64,000 bases of DNA, taken from assembly GCA_013152715.1 (NCBI GenBank), contig JAADFU010000200.1, positions 1 through 64,000 of the forward strand. Direction: 5' to 3'. The DNA comes from Calditrichota bacterium (GTDB lineage: Bacteria; Zhuqueibacterota; Zhuqueibacteria; Thermofontimicrobiales; Thermofontimicrobiaceae). A program made the translations under genes and the position numbers. Below are positions 20,580 through 43,768 of the stretch, one piece after another; within the stretch, counting starts at the first letter, position 1, and each line of letters opens with the position of its first letter. The notes beneath the pieces are model-generated. The model was not told where the DNA came from. It worked only from the letters and a program-made list of their open reading frames with translations, and searched no databases.

Positions 20580-20702
20580 TTTGGTAATTTTTTGTTCAAT
20601 GATATCTTTGGGCACATTGATTCATATTTATTGATTATATGAATTTGTAACCTGTTATTGGTAATTGTTTGCCAAATGGCTGGTTTTGTGGCTAAACTCA
20701 TC

Positions 20703-20814
20703 AATCCTGATAACCACAGATTTGCAGGAATTCGGGCGCTGTGCAACTTCTCGTCGGAAAGGCAGTTTAACAAAAGCTTTTCGGCCCTCAAATTCATTTT
20801 TGGTTATCAGGATT
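20703..20814. repeat. 112-base element with 14-base perfect terminal inverted repeats
   Basis: AATCCTGATAACCA at 20703-20716 is the exact reverse complement of 20801-20814, and six T follow at 20815-20820 after one G. It lies between ftsZ and the radical-SAM gene, and could act as a large-loop terminator for the dcw cluster or be a miniature repeat element. A long open frame runs through it into the next gene, but the start at 20832 with its ribosome-binding site argues that this part is not translated. Confidence 0.6.
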
Positions 20815-20831
20815 GTTTTTTTGAGAAGGGA

Positions 20832-22454
20832 ATGAAAAAATATACTAACGACAGACCTTTTGAGCAATTACGGCAACGAATTTTATCGCGGGAGAAAAAT
20901 GCGGCACAGGTAAAATCCGAAAGTGTGTTGTCCGTAGCTTTGGCGTTTCCCAATTCTTACGGCGTGGGCATGGCAAGTTTGGGATTTCAATCAGTTTACC
21001 GCATTTTCAATGAATTTGGCGAGGTACGTTGTGAGCGCGCTTTCTTCGATAAATCTTTTCCAGTGCGCACAAAAACAATCGAATCCGGTACTGAATTGCG
21101 CCATTTTGATGTTGTCGCTTTTTCAATTTCCTTCGAATTGGATATTCCGAATGTCGTTCGATTTTTAATGGAGAGCGGAATCGAGCCGCTGGCAAAAAAT
21201 CGAAATGAAAAAGAGCCGCTCGTGTTGCTTGGCGGAACAGCAGCGTTCATGAATCCGGCGCCGCTTTCTTTGTTTGCCGATATTGTTGTCATGGGAGAAA
21301 TCGAACCGATTTCGCATTTGCTGGTCGAAACTTTGCTTGAGTACAGAAAAAATGCGATCTCCAGGGCAGAGTTGTTTGAGATTTTTGCAAATTCTGCCGG
21401 ATTTTATGTGCCGCATTTTGCTCCTCAAAATGGCCAGATTGTCAAAGTTCACGCTGATTTAAAAAAGTTTTTGCCGCAGTACTCTGTCATTCAGTCGCCC
21501 GATAGCCATTTTAAAGATATGTTTCTGCTGGAAGTGGGAAGAGGCTGCGGCAGACGATGCCGGTTTTGCGCCGCGAGTCATATTTACCATCCTTATCGCA
21601 TTTTTCCCGAAGAAAAAATAATTGAGACTATTGAAGAAAACGCCGGCGAAACAAAGCGCGTAGGGTTGGTCGGCGCGGCGCTTTCGGATTATCCTGGTTT
21701 ACTGCGATTGTGCCGTGTATTAGCGGATAAAGGTTATGAGTTAGGTTTGTCCTCTTTTCGCTTGGACATGATTACGCCGGAATTTTTAGATATTTTTGAG
21801 CGTGCGCAAGTGAATTCCATCGCCTTTGCGCCGGAAGCTGGCTCCGAACGATTGAGAAAAATAATCAATAAAAATCTATCGCAGGAAGTCATCATGCAAG
21901 CGGCGGCTTCGTTGGGCGATTCAAATATCTCTCACATTAAATTGTATTTTTTGATTGGATTACCCGGAGAAACGCAGAATGATATTGACGCCATTGTCGA
22001 TTTGGTGAAAAACGTGAGTTCGATTTTTTTAAAAAAAAACAAAAAGCGAAAACTGACTTTGAGCATCAACGCTTTCATTCCGAAGCCGTGGACTCCTTTT
22101 CAGTGGGCACCGCTGGCGAGGCCTGAATATAGCCGGCGGACCAGAAAATACATTTCCGATAAACTGAAAAATTTCCGCAATGTCGAAATGTTGAAAAAAA
22201 GTTCAAAGGAAGAAGTTTTGCAAGCGGTCTTTTCCCAGGGCAATGAAAAAGTAGGACGGGCTGTCTATCTGAAAATTAGAGAGCGGCTTTCCTGGGAGAA
22301 AGCGTGGGAGCAAGCCGAAGTGAACGTTGAAAAGAGCGTCTTTCTGGAAAAAGGCCGTGATTACCGTTTTCCCTGGGAATATATGGGTTTCGGTTTGCGG
22401 CAAGACTTTCTGTGGAAAAATTGGTCTGCGGTATCTGTTGGTTCAAAATCTTGA
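20832..22454 (+). CDS. B12-binding-type radical SAM protein
   Basis: Predicted [4Fe-4S]/S-adenosylmethionine radical enzyme of unknown substrate. The 540-residue product has an N-terminal domain with FPNSYGVGMASLGFQ and LVLLGGTAAFMNP (cobalamin-binding-like fold) and a radical-SAM core with CGRRCRFC (Cys239, 243, 246). Later motifs include APEAGSERLR and LYFLIGLPGET. This resembles the family often annotated TIGR03960, which in other bacteria is linked to a DUF2344 partner; no partner is present here. ATG 20832 follows GAGAAGGGA; the frame is open further upstream, but that part covers the inverted repeat. Confidence 0.85.
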   Translation: MKKYTNDRPFEQLRQRILSREKNAAQVKSESVLSVALAFPNSYGVGMASLGFQSVYRIFNEFGEVRCERAFFDKSFPVRTKTIESGTELRHFDVVAFSISFELDIPNVVRFLMESGIEPLAKNRNEKEPLVLLGGTAAFMNPAPLSLFADIVVMGEIEPISHLLVETLLEYRKNAISRAELFEIFANSAGFYVPHFAPQNGQIVKVHADLKKFLPQYSVIQSPDSHFKDMFLLEVGRGCGRRCRFCAASHIYHPYRIFPEEKIIETIEENAGETKRVGLVGAALSDYPGLLRLCRVLADKGYELGLSSFRLDMITPEFLDIFERAQVNSIAFAPEAGSERLRKIINKNLSQEVIMQAAASLGDSNISHIKLYFLIGLPGETQNDIDAIVDLVKNVSSIFLKKNKKRKLTLSINAFIPKPWTPFQWAPLARPEYSRRTRKYISDKLKNFRNVEMLKKSSKEEVLQAVFSQGNEKVGRAVYLKIRERLSWEKAWEQAEVNVEKSVFLEKGRDYRFPWEYMGFGLRQDFLWKNWSAVSVGSKS

Positions 22455-38088: not shown

Positions 38089-39048
38089 TTGAGCGGAAAT
38101 AAATTCAAACATTTATTCGGTCCCGTGCCTTCGCGGCGTTTGGGAATTTCGCTGGGAGTTGATCTGGTTCCGCATAAAACGTGTTCTTTGAATTGTGTCT
38201 ACTGTGAGTGCGGAAAAACGACTGATTTAACAGTTGAGCGGAAGCAATATATTCCAACAACGGATGTAATTGAAGAATTGGGCGAATTTCTCAAAGATCG
38301 TCCAAAATTGGATTTCATCACTTTTTCCGGTTCAGGCGAACCTACCCTGCATTCAGGAATCGGTGAAATTTGTGATTTCATAAAATCAAATTTCCCCGAA
38401 TACAAATTAGCGTTGCTGACAAACGGCACATTGTTTTTTGATCCGGCAGTAAGGCAGGAAGTCAAAAAGATTGACATTATTCTTCCGTCGCTGGATGCGG
38501 CGACCGAAGATATTTTCAAAAAAATCAATCACCCTCATCGAGATCTGAAAATTAACGCCATCATCGACGGGATCGTCAAATTGCGATCTGAATTCACCGG
38601 AAAAATGTGGCTGGAAATCTTCATTGTGCCCGGGCTTAATGACACATCGGAACAAATTGCGGCTTTGAAAGACGCGGTTCATTTTATTCAGCCTGATTTG
38701 GTGCAATTAAATACGCTTGACAGGCCCGGAACCGCCGAATGGGTTCGGCAGGCATCAAAAAAGACATTAGAAAAAATAGCTGAACAGTTAGATTGGGAAA
38801 CGGAGATAATTGCAAATTTTAAAAAGAGAGAACAAATAAGCAGCTACAGCATTGATGTGGAAAACGCAATATTGCAAATGCTGCGTCGCCGGCCCTGCAC
38901 AACGGCGGATCTTTCCGCATCTTTGGGGAAGCATGAAAATGAAATAAACAAATACATTGAAGCCTTGTTGGAGAAAAATATTATTGCTGCAAAAAGAATG
39001 TCGCGCGGTAATTTTTTTCTCACTCAAACTGAGGCTGAAGAAAATTGA
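38089..39048 (+). CDS. Radical SAM protein (COG0731-like) with winged-helix tail
   Basis: Predicted [4Fe-4S] radical enzyme of 319 residues. Early signature GPVPSRRLGISLGVD and the CSLNCVYC triad (Cys32, 36, 39) are followed by FSGSGEPTLH and LEIFIVPGLND. The C-terminal 70 residues look like a winged helix (ILQMLRRRPCTTADLSASLG). The GPVPSRR branch is common in anaerobes and its substrate is unsettled. The only usable start is TTG at 38089, without a strong ribosome-binding site, so the true start could differ by a few codons. Confidence 0.83.
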   Translation: MSGNKFKHLFGPVPSRRLGISLGVDLVPHKTCSLNCVYCECGKTTDLTVERKQYIPTTDVIEELGEFLKDRPKLDFITFSGSGEPTLHSGIGEICDFIKSNFPEYKLALLTNGTLFFDPAVRQEVKKIDIILPSLDAATEDIFKKINHPHRDLKINAIIDGIVKLRSEFTGKMWLEIFIVPGLNDTSEQIAALKDAVHFIQPDLVQLNTLDRPGTAEWVRQASKKTLEKIAEQLDWETEIIANFKKREQISSYSIDVENAILQMLRRRPCTTADLSASLGKHENEINKYIEALLEKNIIAAKRMSRGNFFLTQTEAEEN

Positions 39049-39150: not shown

Positions 39151-39597
39151 ATGCCATTTGGATTTGGAGGCGGAAGAGGACGTGGACGAGGTGGCGGCGG
39201 TGGCGGTCGCGGAATGGGCGGAGGAGGAAGAGGACGGTTTTTATCAGAAAAAAATAATTTTTGTATTTGTCCCAATTGCAAAACAGTTGTACCGCATCAG
39301 TTAGGAGTCCCTTGTTATCAGACGATTTGCCCCAATTGCGGCACTCCGATGACGCGACAATTTCAATCGGGTCTGCAAAACGCAGGACCAGTACCAACGG
39401 CAGCGCCAATGGCGCAGATCCCCAACGTAGATGCGGAAATGTGTACGGGCTGCAGAAAATGTCTCAATGTTTGTCCGGTAAATGCCATTAAAATGGTTGA
39501 TAACAACGCGGTCATTGATGCCAATCAATGCAGTGGCTGTTTAGTCTGCATTCCTGCTTGTCCGTTTGGGGCAATTAAGGTAGGAGAGAATGGCTGA
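39151..39597 (+). CDS. Gly-rich zinc-ribbon protein fused to 2[4Fe-4S] ferredoxin
   Basis: A 148-residue three-part protein: a Gly/Arg tract (1-30), a zinc-ribbon (Cys40/43 and 60/63 around HQLGVPCYQTI) and a ferredoxin (Cys98, 101, 104, 108 and 127, 130, 133, 137). The ribbon is nearly the same as in the protein at 35408, so one is a duplicated and fused version of the other. GGAGG precedes ATG 39151. Its end overlaps the cation-efflux gene by eight bases, so the two are coupled. Probably an electron or cluster carrier. Confidence 0.87.
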   Translation: MPFGFGGGRGRGRGGGGGGRGMGGGGRGRFLSEKNNFCICPNCKTVVPHQLGVPCYQTICPNCGTPMTRQFQSGLQNAGPVPTAAPMAQIPNVDAEMCTGCRKCLNVCPVNAIKMVDNNAVIDANQCSGCLVCIPACPFGAIKVGENG

Positions 39598-40867
39598 CAA
39601 AACAGCACAATTAAAAATGGGGCAGAAGATTGCATTTTGGGCGACTTTGATCACGTTGCTGCTTTCTGCGCTCAAAGGCGTGGTAGGCGTTGCGTTTGAT
39701 TCCAAAGTGTTGGTCGCTGATGCCTTTCATAGCGGTGCTGACAGTATCGCCATTTTCGCATCGGGATTCGGACTGTGGCTTGCGGCGAGAAAAAAAAGCG
39801 AGCGTTTTCCGTACGGTCTCTACAAAGCGGAGACATTTGTAACTTTGTTCATTGGCGGATTCATTGTGTGGGCAGGCGCGGAATTACTGATTGAAGGATA
39901 TCGCAAATTATTCGTTGTGCCTCCGATCATAAAATTTCCGATTTTGCCTGTTTGCGCATCGGTAATTTCGATCGTGATTGCCTTTTTTATCGCCAGAAAA
40001 GAGAAAAAAGTCGGCGAGCAGATTCACTCGCAATCTTTAATTGCCAACGGCAAGGAATCGTTTCTGGACATTTTCTCATCGACTGTGGTTTTGCTGGGCA
40101 TTCTCGTGGCTTATTGGCGCATTCCCTACGTGGAAAGCGCAATTATCATATTGATTTCCTTGCTGATTTTGAAATTGGGAATGGAAAATATCTGGAATTC
40201 GCTGCTGGTTTTGATGGATGCAAATTTGGACAAGCCTTTGCAGGGGGAGATAGAGAAGCTTGTTTCAGAAGTAACAGGCGTCAAGTCGGTGAATCATGTG
40301 AAAATCAGGCAAGCAGGTCCTTTTCGCCTGGTGGAAACCGAATTTGCCACAAATCCATCAATTACAATTTTTCAGGCGCATGAGATTGCCGATGATGTGG
40401 AAAAACAAATTATGGAAAAATTCCCTTCTGTGGAATCCGTATTTGTCCATGTGGAGCCGTCGCGCCAGCGAGAAATTCGTGCGATTATTCCGGTAAAAAA
40501 TATCGATGGTCTGCGTTCGCAGGTTAATAGTCATTTCGGCAGAGCGCCGTACTTTGTCATTTTGAAAATATTTGATGACAATGTTGAAATTGAAGACTTT
40601 TACCTCAATGAATTTTTAGATCGTAAACAGCACATTGGAGTGCACGTTGTTAAGGTAATCGTGAATTACGATCTGGACATGGTTTTCACAAGCCAAATCG
40701 GTGAAATCTCTTTTTACATGCTGAAGGAGAATTTTATTGATCTTTATCAGATTGGCAATGAGGATGCCAAGGTGGAAGACGTGATAGCGATGTACAAAGA
40801 AAACAAGCTTCCGCGCATTACCGCACCCACGCACTCTGTGGATGAAGCGGAAGTTGAAAAGGAGTAA
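39590..40867 (+). CDS. Cation diffusion facilitator fused to a NifX-type domain
   Basis: A 425-residue fusion. Residues 10-210 are a six-helix CDF carrier; the metal site would be His47 and Asp51 in DAFHSGAD (helix 2) with Glu156 and Asp160 in KESFLD (helix 5), instead of the more common HxxxD or DxxxD in helix 5. Residues 210-292 are the usual cytoplasmic domain. Residues 295-410 form a NifX/MTH1175-like domain (VNSHFGRAPYFVILKI). The metal is open: Fe, Mn, Co or Zn. Such a fusion links export to a cluster or metal-binding domain. Confidence 0.88.
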   Translation: MADKTAQLKMGQKIAFWATLITLLLSALKGVVGVAFDSKVLVADAFHSGADSIAIFASGFGLWLAARKKSERFPYGLYKAETFVTLFIGGFIVWAGAELLIEGYRKLFVVPPIIKFPILPVCASVISIVIAFFIARKEKKVGEQIHSQSLIANGKESFLDIFSSTVVLLGILVAYWRIPYVESAIIILISLLILKLGMENIWNSLLVLMDANLDKPLQGEIEKLVSEVTGVKSVNHVKIRQAGPFRLVETEFATNPSITIFQAHEIADDVEKQIMEKFPSVESVFVHVEPSRQREIRAIIPVKNIDGLRSQVNSHFGRAPYFVILKIFDDNVEIEDFYLNEFLDRKQHIGVHVVKVIVNYDLDMVFTSQIGEISFYMLKENFIDLYQIGNEDAKVEDVIAMYKENKLPRITAPTHSVDEAEVEKE

Positions 40868-40950: not shown

Positions 40951-41337
40951 ATGAAAATCGCCGTTGCAACCGACGATAAGATTTTCATTCGCAAGGGACA
41001 TTTTGGCGAAGGAAAATACTATCTGATTTATGAAATTCTGAACGGGAAAATATTTTCCGAAGAATTGCGGCCTAATCCGGACGTGCTTGAAGAAAAACAT
41101 CAACACGGTAATGCCGAGAGAGTTATGGAATTGCTCAATGATTGCCAGATTTTTATGGCGCAAAGCATGGGGAAAAAATCAATTAAAAAACTGGCGGAAA
41201 ACAGTTTTGAAGTGATCATTTCCACTATTGAAGAAGCCGAAAAAGCCGTTAGCTCTTACCTTGATGGCCAGGATGATTTGTTCAAGTATTACGACAAGGA
41301 AGCAGATGCCTTGCTTTCCTGCGCCAGCAGAAGTTAG
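40951..41337 (+). CDS. NifX-type cluster-binding domain protein (copy 3)
   Basis: A 128-residue protein starting MKIAVATDD, with the domain's GHFGEGKYYLIYEI and CQIFMAQSMGKKSIKKL segments. It is more divergent than the copies at 33703 and 49722 and has a short Cys-containing tail (LLSCASRS). AAGGAG stands before the ATG. It follows the CDF-NifX fusion, so the gene may have arisen with it. Confidence 0.82.
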   Translation: MKIAVATDDKIFIRKGHFGEGKYYLIYEILNGKIFSEELRPNPDVLEEKHQHGNAERVMELLNDCQIFMAQSMGKKSIKKLAENSFEVIISTIEEAEKAVSSYLDGQDDLFKYYDKEADALLSCASRS

Positions 41338-41681
41338 GGAGCTTTGCTGGAAAATAATTTTCGTCGGAGAAAGCAATTTCTGAAAGCACTTATAATGCGA
41401 ATGACCAGTTAAAATTGAACATAAGTCGCTAATTTATTGTTTTTAAAAGGCTGACGCCTTAACTCCACTCCAATTTAGGAATTTTAGGAATTAAGCCGTA
41501 AGGCTTTTATTATTTTCATTGCTATTTTACTTAAAATTTTCCAACTGGTCATTCATATTTATAGTCAAATTTGCAAAAGCCATTGACCGGGAACTTTTCT
41601 TTTTCTCTATTGCGATATCAAAGATTCAATTTTCGTGACCGAATTCAAAAAGATTATCCGCATTAAAAGGATCGACAAAAT
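41338..41681. other. Intergenic region carrying a repeat element
   Basis: Nearly half of this 344-base gap is the 41399-41554 repeat element. The remainder is AT-rich without a clear promoter; an AAGGA stands upstream of the small Cys-rich peptide at 41682. Confidence 0.6.
41399..41554. repeat. AACTGGTCATTC-family element copy C (complete)
   Basis: A 156-base element bounded by GAATGACCAGTT (41399-41410) and its exact reverse complement AACTGGTCATTC (41543-41554). Inside is a hairpin: AAAAGGCTGACGCCTTAA against TTAAGCCGTAAGGCTTTT with a few mismatches. Copy A at 215 has only the arms; copy B at 11297 has the hairpin and right arm. No reading frame is inside, so it is non-autonomous. Confidence 0.8.
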
Positions 41682-41762
41682 ATGTCCATCTTAATTAAAA
41701 ATAAAAACTGCGCCATTTGCAAGTTGCTGCATCACTGCGGCTCCGGAGGCCCGACTTGCTAA
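41682..41762 (+). CDS. 26-residue Cys-rich peptide
   Basis: ATG 41682 to TAA 41762 codes for a short peptide whose C-terminal half is CAICKLLHHCGSGGPTC: four Cys and two His within 17 residues, after a basic start. AAGGA stands about eleven bases upstream of the ATG. The compact C-x2-C-x5-C-x6-C pattern with His-His suits a metal or cluster ligand, or a modified peptide. It lies immediately before an old-yellow-enzyme gene and after a NifX-type gene. No family is recognised. Confidence 0.5.
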   Translation: MSILIKNKNCAICKLLHHCGSGGPTC

Positions 41763-41845: not shown

Positions 41846-43768
41846 ATGAAGGCGATTGATAAAACAAACATTAATGGCGTGGCGTTGAGAAACCGCTTTT
41901 TTATGGCTCCGGTGAAAACCTCGATGGGACTTCCCGGAGGAAAAGTGACTGAAGATAATATTAAATTCTACGAAAAAATAGCGAAAGGGGGGACGGCTGC
42001 CATTATTTTGGAGCCGATGGCTGTGCTTCCGAGCGGAAAAGAACATCCGAAACAGTTGAGTATTCATGATGACTCTTTTGTTGGCGACATCAAAAAACTT
42101 GTTGACACGATTCACAAAAATGGCGCTGTTGCTGGCATTCATCTGAATCATGCCGGTAGAGCCGCCAATCCTAAAGTCATTGGACAAACTCCATTGGCGC
42201 CGTCAAAAATGGTATGTCCGACTACGGGCACTGAAGCACAAGAAATGACAACAGAACAAATTCAGGAAATTGTAGCCGGTTTCGGCGCGGCAACGAGACG
42301 CGCGGTGGCTGCAGGAGCCGATTTTATCGAAATTCAGTTTGGTCACGGGTATCTCGTGGCGCAATTTTTTTCTGAAAGGACAAATAAAAGGACCGATGAA
42401 TACGGCGGGAGTCTGGAAAATCGGCTCCGCTTTGCCCGCGAAGTCCTTGACGAAGTGACTAAAAATAAGGGCAATTTGCCGTTCATCGTGCGCGTTTCCG
42501 GACAAGAATTTGTTGACGGCGGGCTTGTGCCGGAAGATTTAGCGCCGCTTTTTGAGTTGAGCGAAAACTACGGGGCGTCTGCGTTGCATGTTGGCTACGG
42601 AAATGCTTGCGATAATCCGCCCTGGTACTACAACCACATGGCGATGCCCGAGGATGAGCAATTTCGCGTTTTGAAAGCGATCAAAGAAATGACCAACTTG
42701 CCGCTGATAGCAGTGGGAAGAATGGGCTTTGTCCCGAAAATAGACAAGGTTTTAGGCGAAGGTTTGGCGGATTACATCGCCTTGGGTAGGCCGCTGATTG
42801 TTGACCCGGAATTTCCCAACAAAATGATTTCCGGCAAGGAAGAGGAAATTATTTTGTGCGGCGGTTGTCTGGAAGGATGTCTGCGTTCTGTGAAAAAAGG
42901 CGAGAAGATCAAATGTATCGTTAATCCCGATTTCAACATGCCGAAAATTACTCCGTCCGAGAAATCGCGAAAGGTGATGATTGTCGGCGGCGGAATAGCA
43001 GGAATTTCCGGAGCAATTCATCTGGCGCGCAAGGGACACAAAGTCACAATTTTCGAAAAAAGCGATCATCTTGGCGGTCAGGCGGAATATGCCCCGACGC
43101 TTTCATTTCTCAAACAGCAATTACAGCGCACCATTGACAGCGTAAAAAGACAGTTGAGAACTGTAGATGTGGACGTAAAACTTGCTACTGAAGTAACGCC
43201 GGAATTGGTGGAAAAAGAAAATCCGGATGTCCTAATTGTTGCCACGGGCTCAAGGCAGAATATCCCTGCGATTAAAAATCTCGAAACCCAGTACTATCTG
43301 ACCTCGCTGAATTTTTTCTCTGATCCGAGCAAAGTAAAAGGAGATCGAATTTTGATCGTTGGCCTTGGAATGATCGGATTGGAAGCAGCAGCAATTTTGG
43401 CAAATCAAAATAAAGAAGTGGTCGGTGTAGAGCCATTACCGGAGGCGGCAGCGAATATGGAGCCCATTACCAGGAAAGTTCTGCTGATGAAGTTGGCAAA
43501 AATGAAAAATGTGACGCTATACACCAATACATTAGTGAAAGGTTTTGCAGATGACGCCGCTATCATCAGCCGAAACGGAGAAGAAAAACAGCTTGCGCCT
43601 TTTGATACGGTGATTATTGCCGCGGGAATGAAGCCGATGACAGATTTAGCTGAAAAATTGCAATCGTGCTGCAACGGCGAAGTTTACGCCATTGGTGATG
43701 CTCACGAGGTCGGTGACATCAAATCCGCGTTCACAGAGGGGATGGAATTGATCAATAAGGTTAAGTGA
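41846..43768 (+). CDS. NADH:flavin oxidoreductase / 2,4-dienoyl-CoA reductase-like enzyme
   Basis: A 640-residue old-yellow-enzyme-type protein: FMN barrel (about 1-330), four Cys for one [4Fe-4S] cluster (338, 341, 345, 357), then an FAD/NAD(P)-binding half with GGGIAG at 381-386 and a second dinucleotide fold near 505 (GLGMIGLEAA). This layout is shared by 2,4-dienoyl-CoA reductase, trimethylamine dehydrogenase and bile-acid-type enoate reductases; the substrate cannot be fixed from sequence. AAAGGTGA precedes the ATG. Electrons would flow from NAD(P)H via FAD and the cluster to FMN. Confidence 0.88.
   Translation: MKAIDKTNINGVALRNRFFMAPVKTSMGLPGGKVTEDNIKFYEKIAKGGTAAIILEPMAVLPSGKEHPKQLSIHDDSFVGDIKKLVDTIHKNGAVAGIHLNHAGRAANPKVIGQTPLAPSKMVCPTTGTEAQEMTTEQIQEIVAGFGAATRRAVAAGADFIEIQFGHGYLVAQFFSERTNKRTDEYGGSLENRLRFAREVLDEVTKNKGNLPFIVRVSGQEFVDGGLVPEDLAPLFELSENYGASALHVGYGNACDNPPWYYNHMAMPEDEQFRVLKAIKEMTNLPLIAVGRMGFVPKIDKVLGEGLADYIALGRPLIVDPEFPNKMISGKEEEIILCGGCLEGCLRSVKKGEKIKCIVNPDFNMPKITPSEKSRKVMIVGGGIAGISGAIHLARKGHKVTIFEKSDHLGGQAEYAPTLSFLKQQLQRTIDSVKRQLRTVDVDVKLATEVTPELVEKENPDVLIVATGSRQNIPAIKNLETQYYLTSLNFFSDPSKVKGDRILIVGLGMIGLEAAAILANQNKEVVGVEPLPEAAANMEPITRKVLLMKLAKMKNVTLYTNTLVKGFADDAAIISRNGEEKQLAPFDTVIIAAGMKPMTDLAEKLQSCCNGEVYAIGDAHEVGDIKSAFTEGMELINKVK

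Follow-up and report, generated by a model that had tools for sequence, protein, structure and literature searches.

The cysteine arrangement closest to that of the peptide described here is the Aux II loop of SPASM domains (PF13186). In anSMEcpe, the Aux II ligands are Cys317, Cys320, Cys326 and Cys348, which corresponds to C-x2-C-x5-C plus a distal cysteine (PMC5715301). The complete SPASM motif has seven cysteines (CX9-15GX4C-Xn-CX2CX5CX3C-Xn-C) and sits on a radical-SAM protein. A further point of comparison is the SEC-C site (PF02810), C-x-C-x8-C-[CH].

We analyzed a stretch of 64,000 nucleotides, hereafter the window, in which a preliminary description had singled out a 26-residue frame with the motif C-x2-C-x5-C-x6-C and a His-His pair, preceded by a plausible ribosome-binding site and lying between a NifX-type gene and a flavin oxidoreductase gene, with two radical-SAM genes elsewhere in the window. 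Its sequence, coordinates and motif proved exact, and the ribosome-binding site, both neighbors and both radical-SAM genes were likewise found. The relevant features are as follows, with G001 denoting KSB1 genome 4484_87.

20658 to 22454 and 38089 to 39048: the two radical-SAM genes
40951 to 41337, + strand: upstream neighbor, NifX-like (Nitro_FeMo-Co), 128 aa; same neighbor in G001
41395 to 41559, no strand: MITE-like repeat, 165 bp, between the NifX-like and peptide genes; absent at this place in G001
41667 to 41671, + strand: probable ribosome-binding site AAGGA, with the ATG 10 nt downstream (predicted from sequence)
41682 to 41762, + strand: microprotein gene, 26 aa, MSILIKNKNCAICKLLHHCGSGGPTC; open reading frame, syntenic same-genus copy, second copy and pN/pS of 0.054
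41846 to 43768, + strand: downstream neighbor, Oxidored_FMN plus Pyr_redox_2 flavin oxidoreductase, 640 aa; same neighbor in G001

Conservation of the microprotein gene

The microprotein frame opens with the ATG at 41682 and is closed by a TAA ending at 41762. The preliminary description held that such a composition is rarely random, a statement that does not stand, as 8 of the 406 ATG-started frames of 15–45 aa in the whole window have at least four cysteines. Cysteine content by itself is thus not rare, and it is conservation that lifts this frame above chance. Among 60 related genomes searched, G001 is the sole member of the same genus, and it contains a match at E = 3e-11 with 83% identity that is flanked by the same NifX-like and flavin oxidoreductase genes. 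Ten of the 20 alignable sense codons differ between the window and G001, with nine of these changes being synonymous and only one a replacement (L to E, TTG to GAA). When the stop codon is counted, substitutions at codon positions 1, 2 and 3 number 1, 2 and 10, respectively. When an equal number of changes was placed at random over the peptide codons, 20,000 times, so few replacements never arose. The pN/pS of the peptide gene, an estimate from 20 codons with synonymous sites close to saturation, is lower (0.054) than that of the NifX-like gene (0.099), which in turn is lower than that of the start of the oxidoreductase gene (0.140).

The preliminary description would have given up the frame had it been disrupted or not conserved in close relatives. 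In G001 the frame is unbroken, with strong purifying selection acting on its amino acid sequence, and we conclude that 41682–41762 is almost certainly a real gene. It is below the length that most gene finders call; it was picked out of the bare sequence, and both selection and the existence of a second copy bear it out. Antisense frames over the peptide gene were also considered and rejected. The 58-aa antisense frame of the window meets a different, shifted sequence in G001, and the concentration of changes at third positions of the + frame disfavors such frames as well.

The MITE-like repeat upstream of the peptide gene has inverted ends (AATGACCAGTT) and about 20 or more near-full copies in the genome at 71–99% identity, and it holds a terminator-like hairpin. 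The upstream flank of the peptide has diverged between the window genome and G001.

A second copy and the extent of the family

A second copy of 37 aa, MNRDRYFSQKRCFVCHKLHYCGSGGPTRSCKFFTKIS, was detected elsewhere in the window's own genome (G000:C43) with E = 6.5e-5. All three members share C-x2-C-x2-L-H-x-C-G-S-G-G-P-T plus a fourth cysteine, giving 13 invariant columns (K, C, C, L, H, C, G, S, G, G, P, T and C). The fourth cysteine is retained in the second copy despite a shift in spacing from x6 to x8, and the last residues are not alike between the copies. Good ribosome-binding sites precede two of the three members, namely the window copy and the G000:C43 copy. The G000:C43 copy is followed by genes for a thioredoxin and then glutaredoxin-like and GroES-like proteins, as named by eye from their translations. 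In each case the next oxidoreductase-type gene begins 83–151 nt beyond the peptide on the same strand. That the second copy is missing from G001 carries little weight, because this genome is only 73% complete and has no ortholog of the G000:C43 thioredoxin.

A strict pattern, C..C..(hydrophobic)H.CG.GGP, searched over 84,980 species matched only G001, the window's own genome possibly being outside that collection. Since this genome-wide scan used the strict pattern only, more distant members may exist. A relaxed pattern, C..C.....CG.GG, recovered exactly the three known sites among 12 genomes of the order. The peptide was found neither in plasmids nor in viral contigs, and phages gave one chance match. 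Of the weak matches in other KSB1 genomes (E 0.006–10), those inspected individually, in G081 and twelve others, were rejected as pieces of unrelated frames. Pfam and NCBIfam scans of the peptide returned no family, a search of PDB sequences gave chance CxxC matches only, and a text search of papers for CGSGGPTC gave no match. From these searches the microprotein appears to be new to the family libraries searched and to form a family with three known members of 24–37 aa, so far seen in a single KSB1 genus.

Metal and redox genes around the two loci

In addition to its immediate neighbors, the window peptide is surrounded by several Nitro_FeMo-Co proteins, ferredoxins, an ArsP_2 exporter, DUF5320, a radical-SAM protein, a methyltransferase and DUF364, the last a putative heavy-metal chelation domain. 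NUBPL-type NTPases, a CGGC protein and zinc-uptake-type genes are located farther along the window. We also note that positions 39590–40867 encode a single fusion of a cation-efflux transporter, a zinc-transporter dimerization domain and a C-terminal Nitro_FeMo-Co domain, and that G001 and G009 each have a frame that nearly matches it in both respects, length and sequence. Between the fusion gene and the NifX-like gene, an interval of only 83 bp in the window, G001 has an FmdB-like zinc-ribbon frame (G001:C57).

The neighborhoods of the two peptide loci come together in other genomes. In G008, which is of the same order, a thioredoxin, a methyltransferase, two NifX-like proteins, a Sir2-like protein, a flavin oxidoreductase, a CGGC protein and DUF5320 are clustered (G008:C31:11000-22000), with the thioredoxin, methyltransferase, NifX-like, oxidoreductase, CGGC and DUF5320 genes lying within ∼10 kb and most assignments made by eye. 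The nearest counterparts of the second-locus thioredoxin (71% identity), those of G002 and G004, adjoin a relative of the window's methyltransferase. The single G008 cluster and the G002/G004 pairing suggest that both peptide loci are part of one metal/redox gene set. No equivalent of the peptide was found within the G008 cluster, next to the NifX-like genes of G009–G011 or upstream of the G002/G004 thioredoxin. As neither G008 nor any other relative examined has it, the peptide looks like a genus-level addition, and the occurrence of same-order loci with the same neighbors but no peptide indicates that it is not essential to the gene set.

Proposed metal or cluster binding, and its alternatives

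We somewhat favor metal or cluster binding (Zn or 4Fe-4S) as the main function of the microprotein, since it has four invariant cysteines, an invariant histidine and a Gly-rich loop, and has metal and thiol-redox genes as neighbors. In this model the four cysteines, possibly together with His17, would form one compact site around which the Gly-rich loop would wrap, and what is bound there would be Zn2+ or a 4Fe-4S cluster. The peptide would then be a small carrier of metal or clusters, a redox partner or an accessory subunit for the surrounding metal and thiol-redox gene set, comprising the NifX-like protein, the cation-efflux/NifX fusion, the flavin oxidoreductase, the thioredoxin and the glutaredoxin-like protein. 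The preliminary description had likewise suggested a metal carrier or cluster ligand, which is plausible from the invariant cysteines and the neighborhood; what counts against it is that no homology to known metal-binding families was found in Pfam, NCBIfam or the PDB. AlphaFold2, run with five untranslated upstream codons added, gave a mean pLDDT of 56 and no confident fold, which says little for a peptide this short modeled from two sequences.

Cys-rich peptides without metal can still be redox-active, which also counts against a metal site. The main rival explanation is a thiol-only redox peptide whose cysteine pairs would form reversible disulfides, and which would serve thioredoxin, glutaredoxin or the flavin oxidoreductase as carrier or substrate. 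The CxxC pair present in all three members fits this explanation, as do the redox genes downstream of both copies (an oxidoreductase in one case, thioredoxin and then a glutaredoxin-like protein in the other), but the invariant L-H-x-C-G-S-G-G-P-T suggests a structured site rather than a simple dithiol, and we regard the thiol-only explanation as possible but improbable. Three further explanations are less likely than this one. The position of each copy shortly before a same-strand oxidoreductase-type gene could also be that of a leader or arrest peptide, the translation of which would respond to metal, to redox state or to the supply of Cys/His and control, in cis, the oxidoreductase or thioredoxin gene that follows. 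The peptides do contain GGP, a type of sequence able to slow ribosomes. However, there are no terminator-like sites in the gap between the peptide and the next gene, folding z-scores of only −0.8 to −1.5 leave attenuator hairpins unsupported, and no Rfam family was matched. In addition, conservation is at the amino acid level across the Gly/Ser/Pro/Thr part and not in codon runs, and the end residues vary between copies. Cis control of this kind thus seems unlikely.

The preliminary description had also raised a ribosomally made, modified peptide precursor. A small, Cys-rich peptide with a radical-SAM gene 2.6 kb upstream, the nearest of the two, would be in keeping with a precursor modified by this or another enzyme. 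However, neither radical-SAM protein of the window has a SPASM domain by Pfam and neither gene is adjacent to the peptide; moreover, there is no maturase or exporter next to the peptide at either locus, no maturase common to both and no leader/core organization. The idea consequently fares poorly and we consider it very improbable. Even less probable is that the frame arose by chance or is the remaining tail of a larger Cys-rich protein that has decayed, as its short length and weak SPASM-like spacing might suggest, given the low pN/pS, the outcome of the random placements and the 13 columns held invariant across two independent loci.

Returning to metal or cluster binding, comparison with described sites gives partial likenesses. 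The peptide and the SPASM Aux II loop have in common C-x2-C-x5-C plus a distal cysteine, a Leu three residues past the second cysteine and a Gly-rich turn past the third. In contrast to SPASM, the peptide is free-standing at 24–37 aa, without a radical-SAM domain and without the CX3C ligand of Aux I, and with C-x2-C-x5-C and one further Cys in 26 aa it does not match the seven-Cys motif. No Pfam match of the peptide to SPASM profiles was obtained at E up to 10. Against two local SPASM cores, Cys-fixed shuffles gave only a weak signal (p of about 0.02–0.05, uncorrected). A match of the second copy to NCBIfam DynA (E 0.049, 12.6 bits) was rejected as far below its cut-off of 450. The likeness to SEC-C, seen by eye, lies in the C-G-S-G turn, where C-GSGGPTRS-C of the second copy shares the x8 spacing of C-GSGKKYKK-C. 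Unlike SEC-C, the peptides lack the C-x-C pair and the C-[CH] end, having H-x-C-x6/8-C only, and gave no Pfam match; shuffles against local SEC-C sequences were unconvincing (p of about 0.04–0.13). With the SPASM likeness weak and the SEC-C turn matched by eye, neither decides between iron-sulfur and zinc.

Small zinc ribbons of the FmdB type are likewise short and bear CxxC, and FmdB-like frames, recognized by eye, occur in the neighborhood in G001 and G002. The peptide differs from FmdB in having no paired CxxCG/CPxCG knuckles, in being less than half the length and in showing no visible sequence similarity. Should the peptide prove able to bind a metal or cluster unaided, few natural proteins with that ability would be smaller. 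A more specific and improbable version of this function is that the free-standing, ribosomally made peptide of 24–37 residues suffices to bind a 4Fe-4S cluster through an Aux II-like loop and diffuses as a carrier of clusters or electrons for the flavin oxidoreductase and thioredoxin set. Were this true, the peptide would be a natural counterpart of the designed ferredoxin maquettes.
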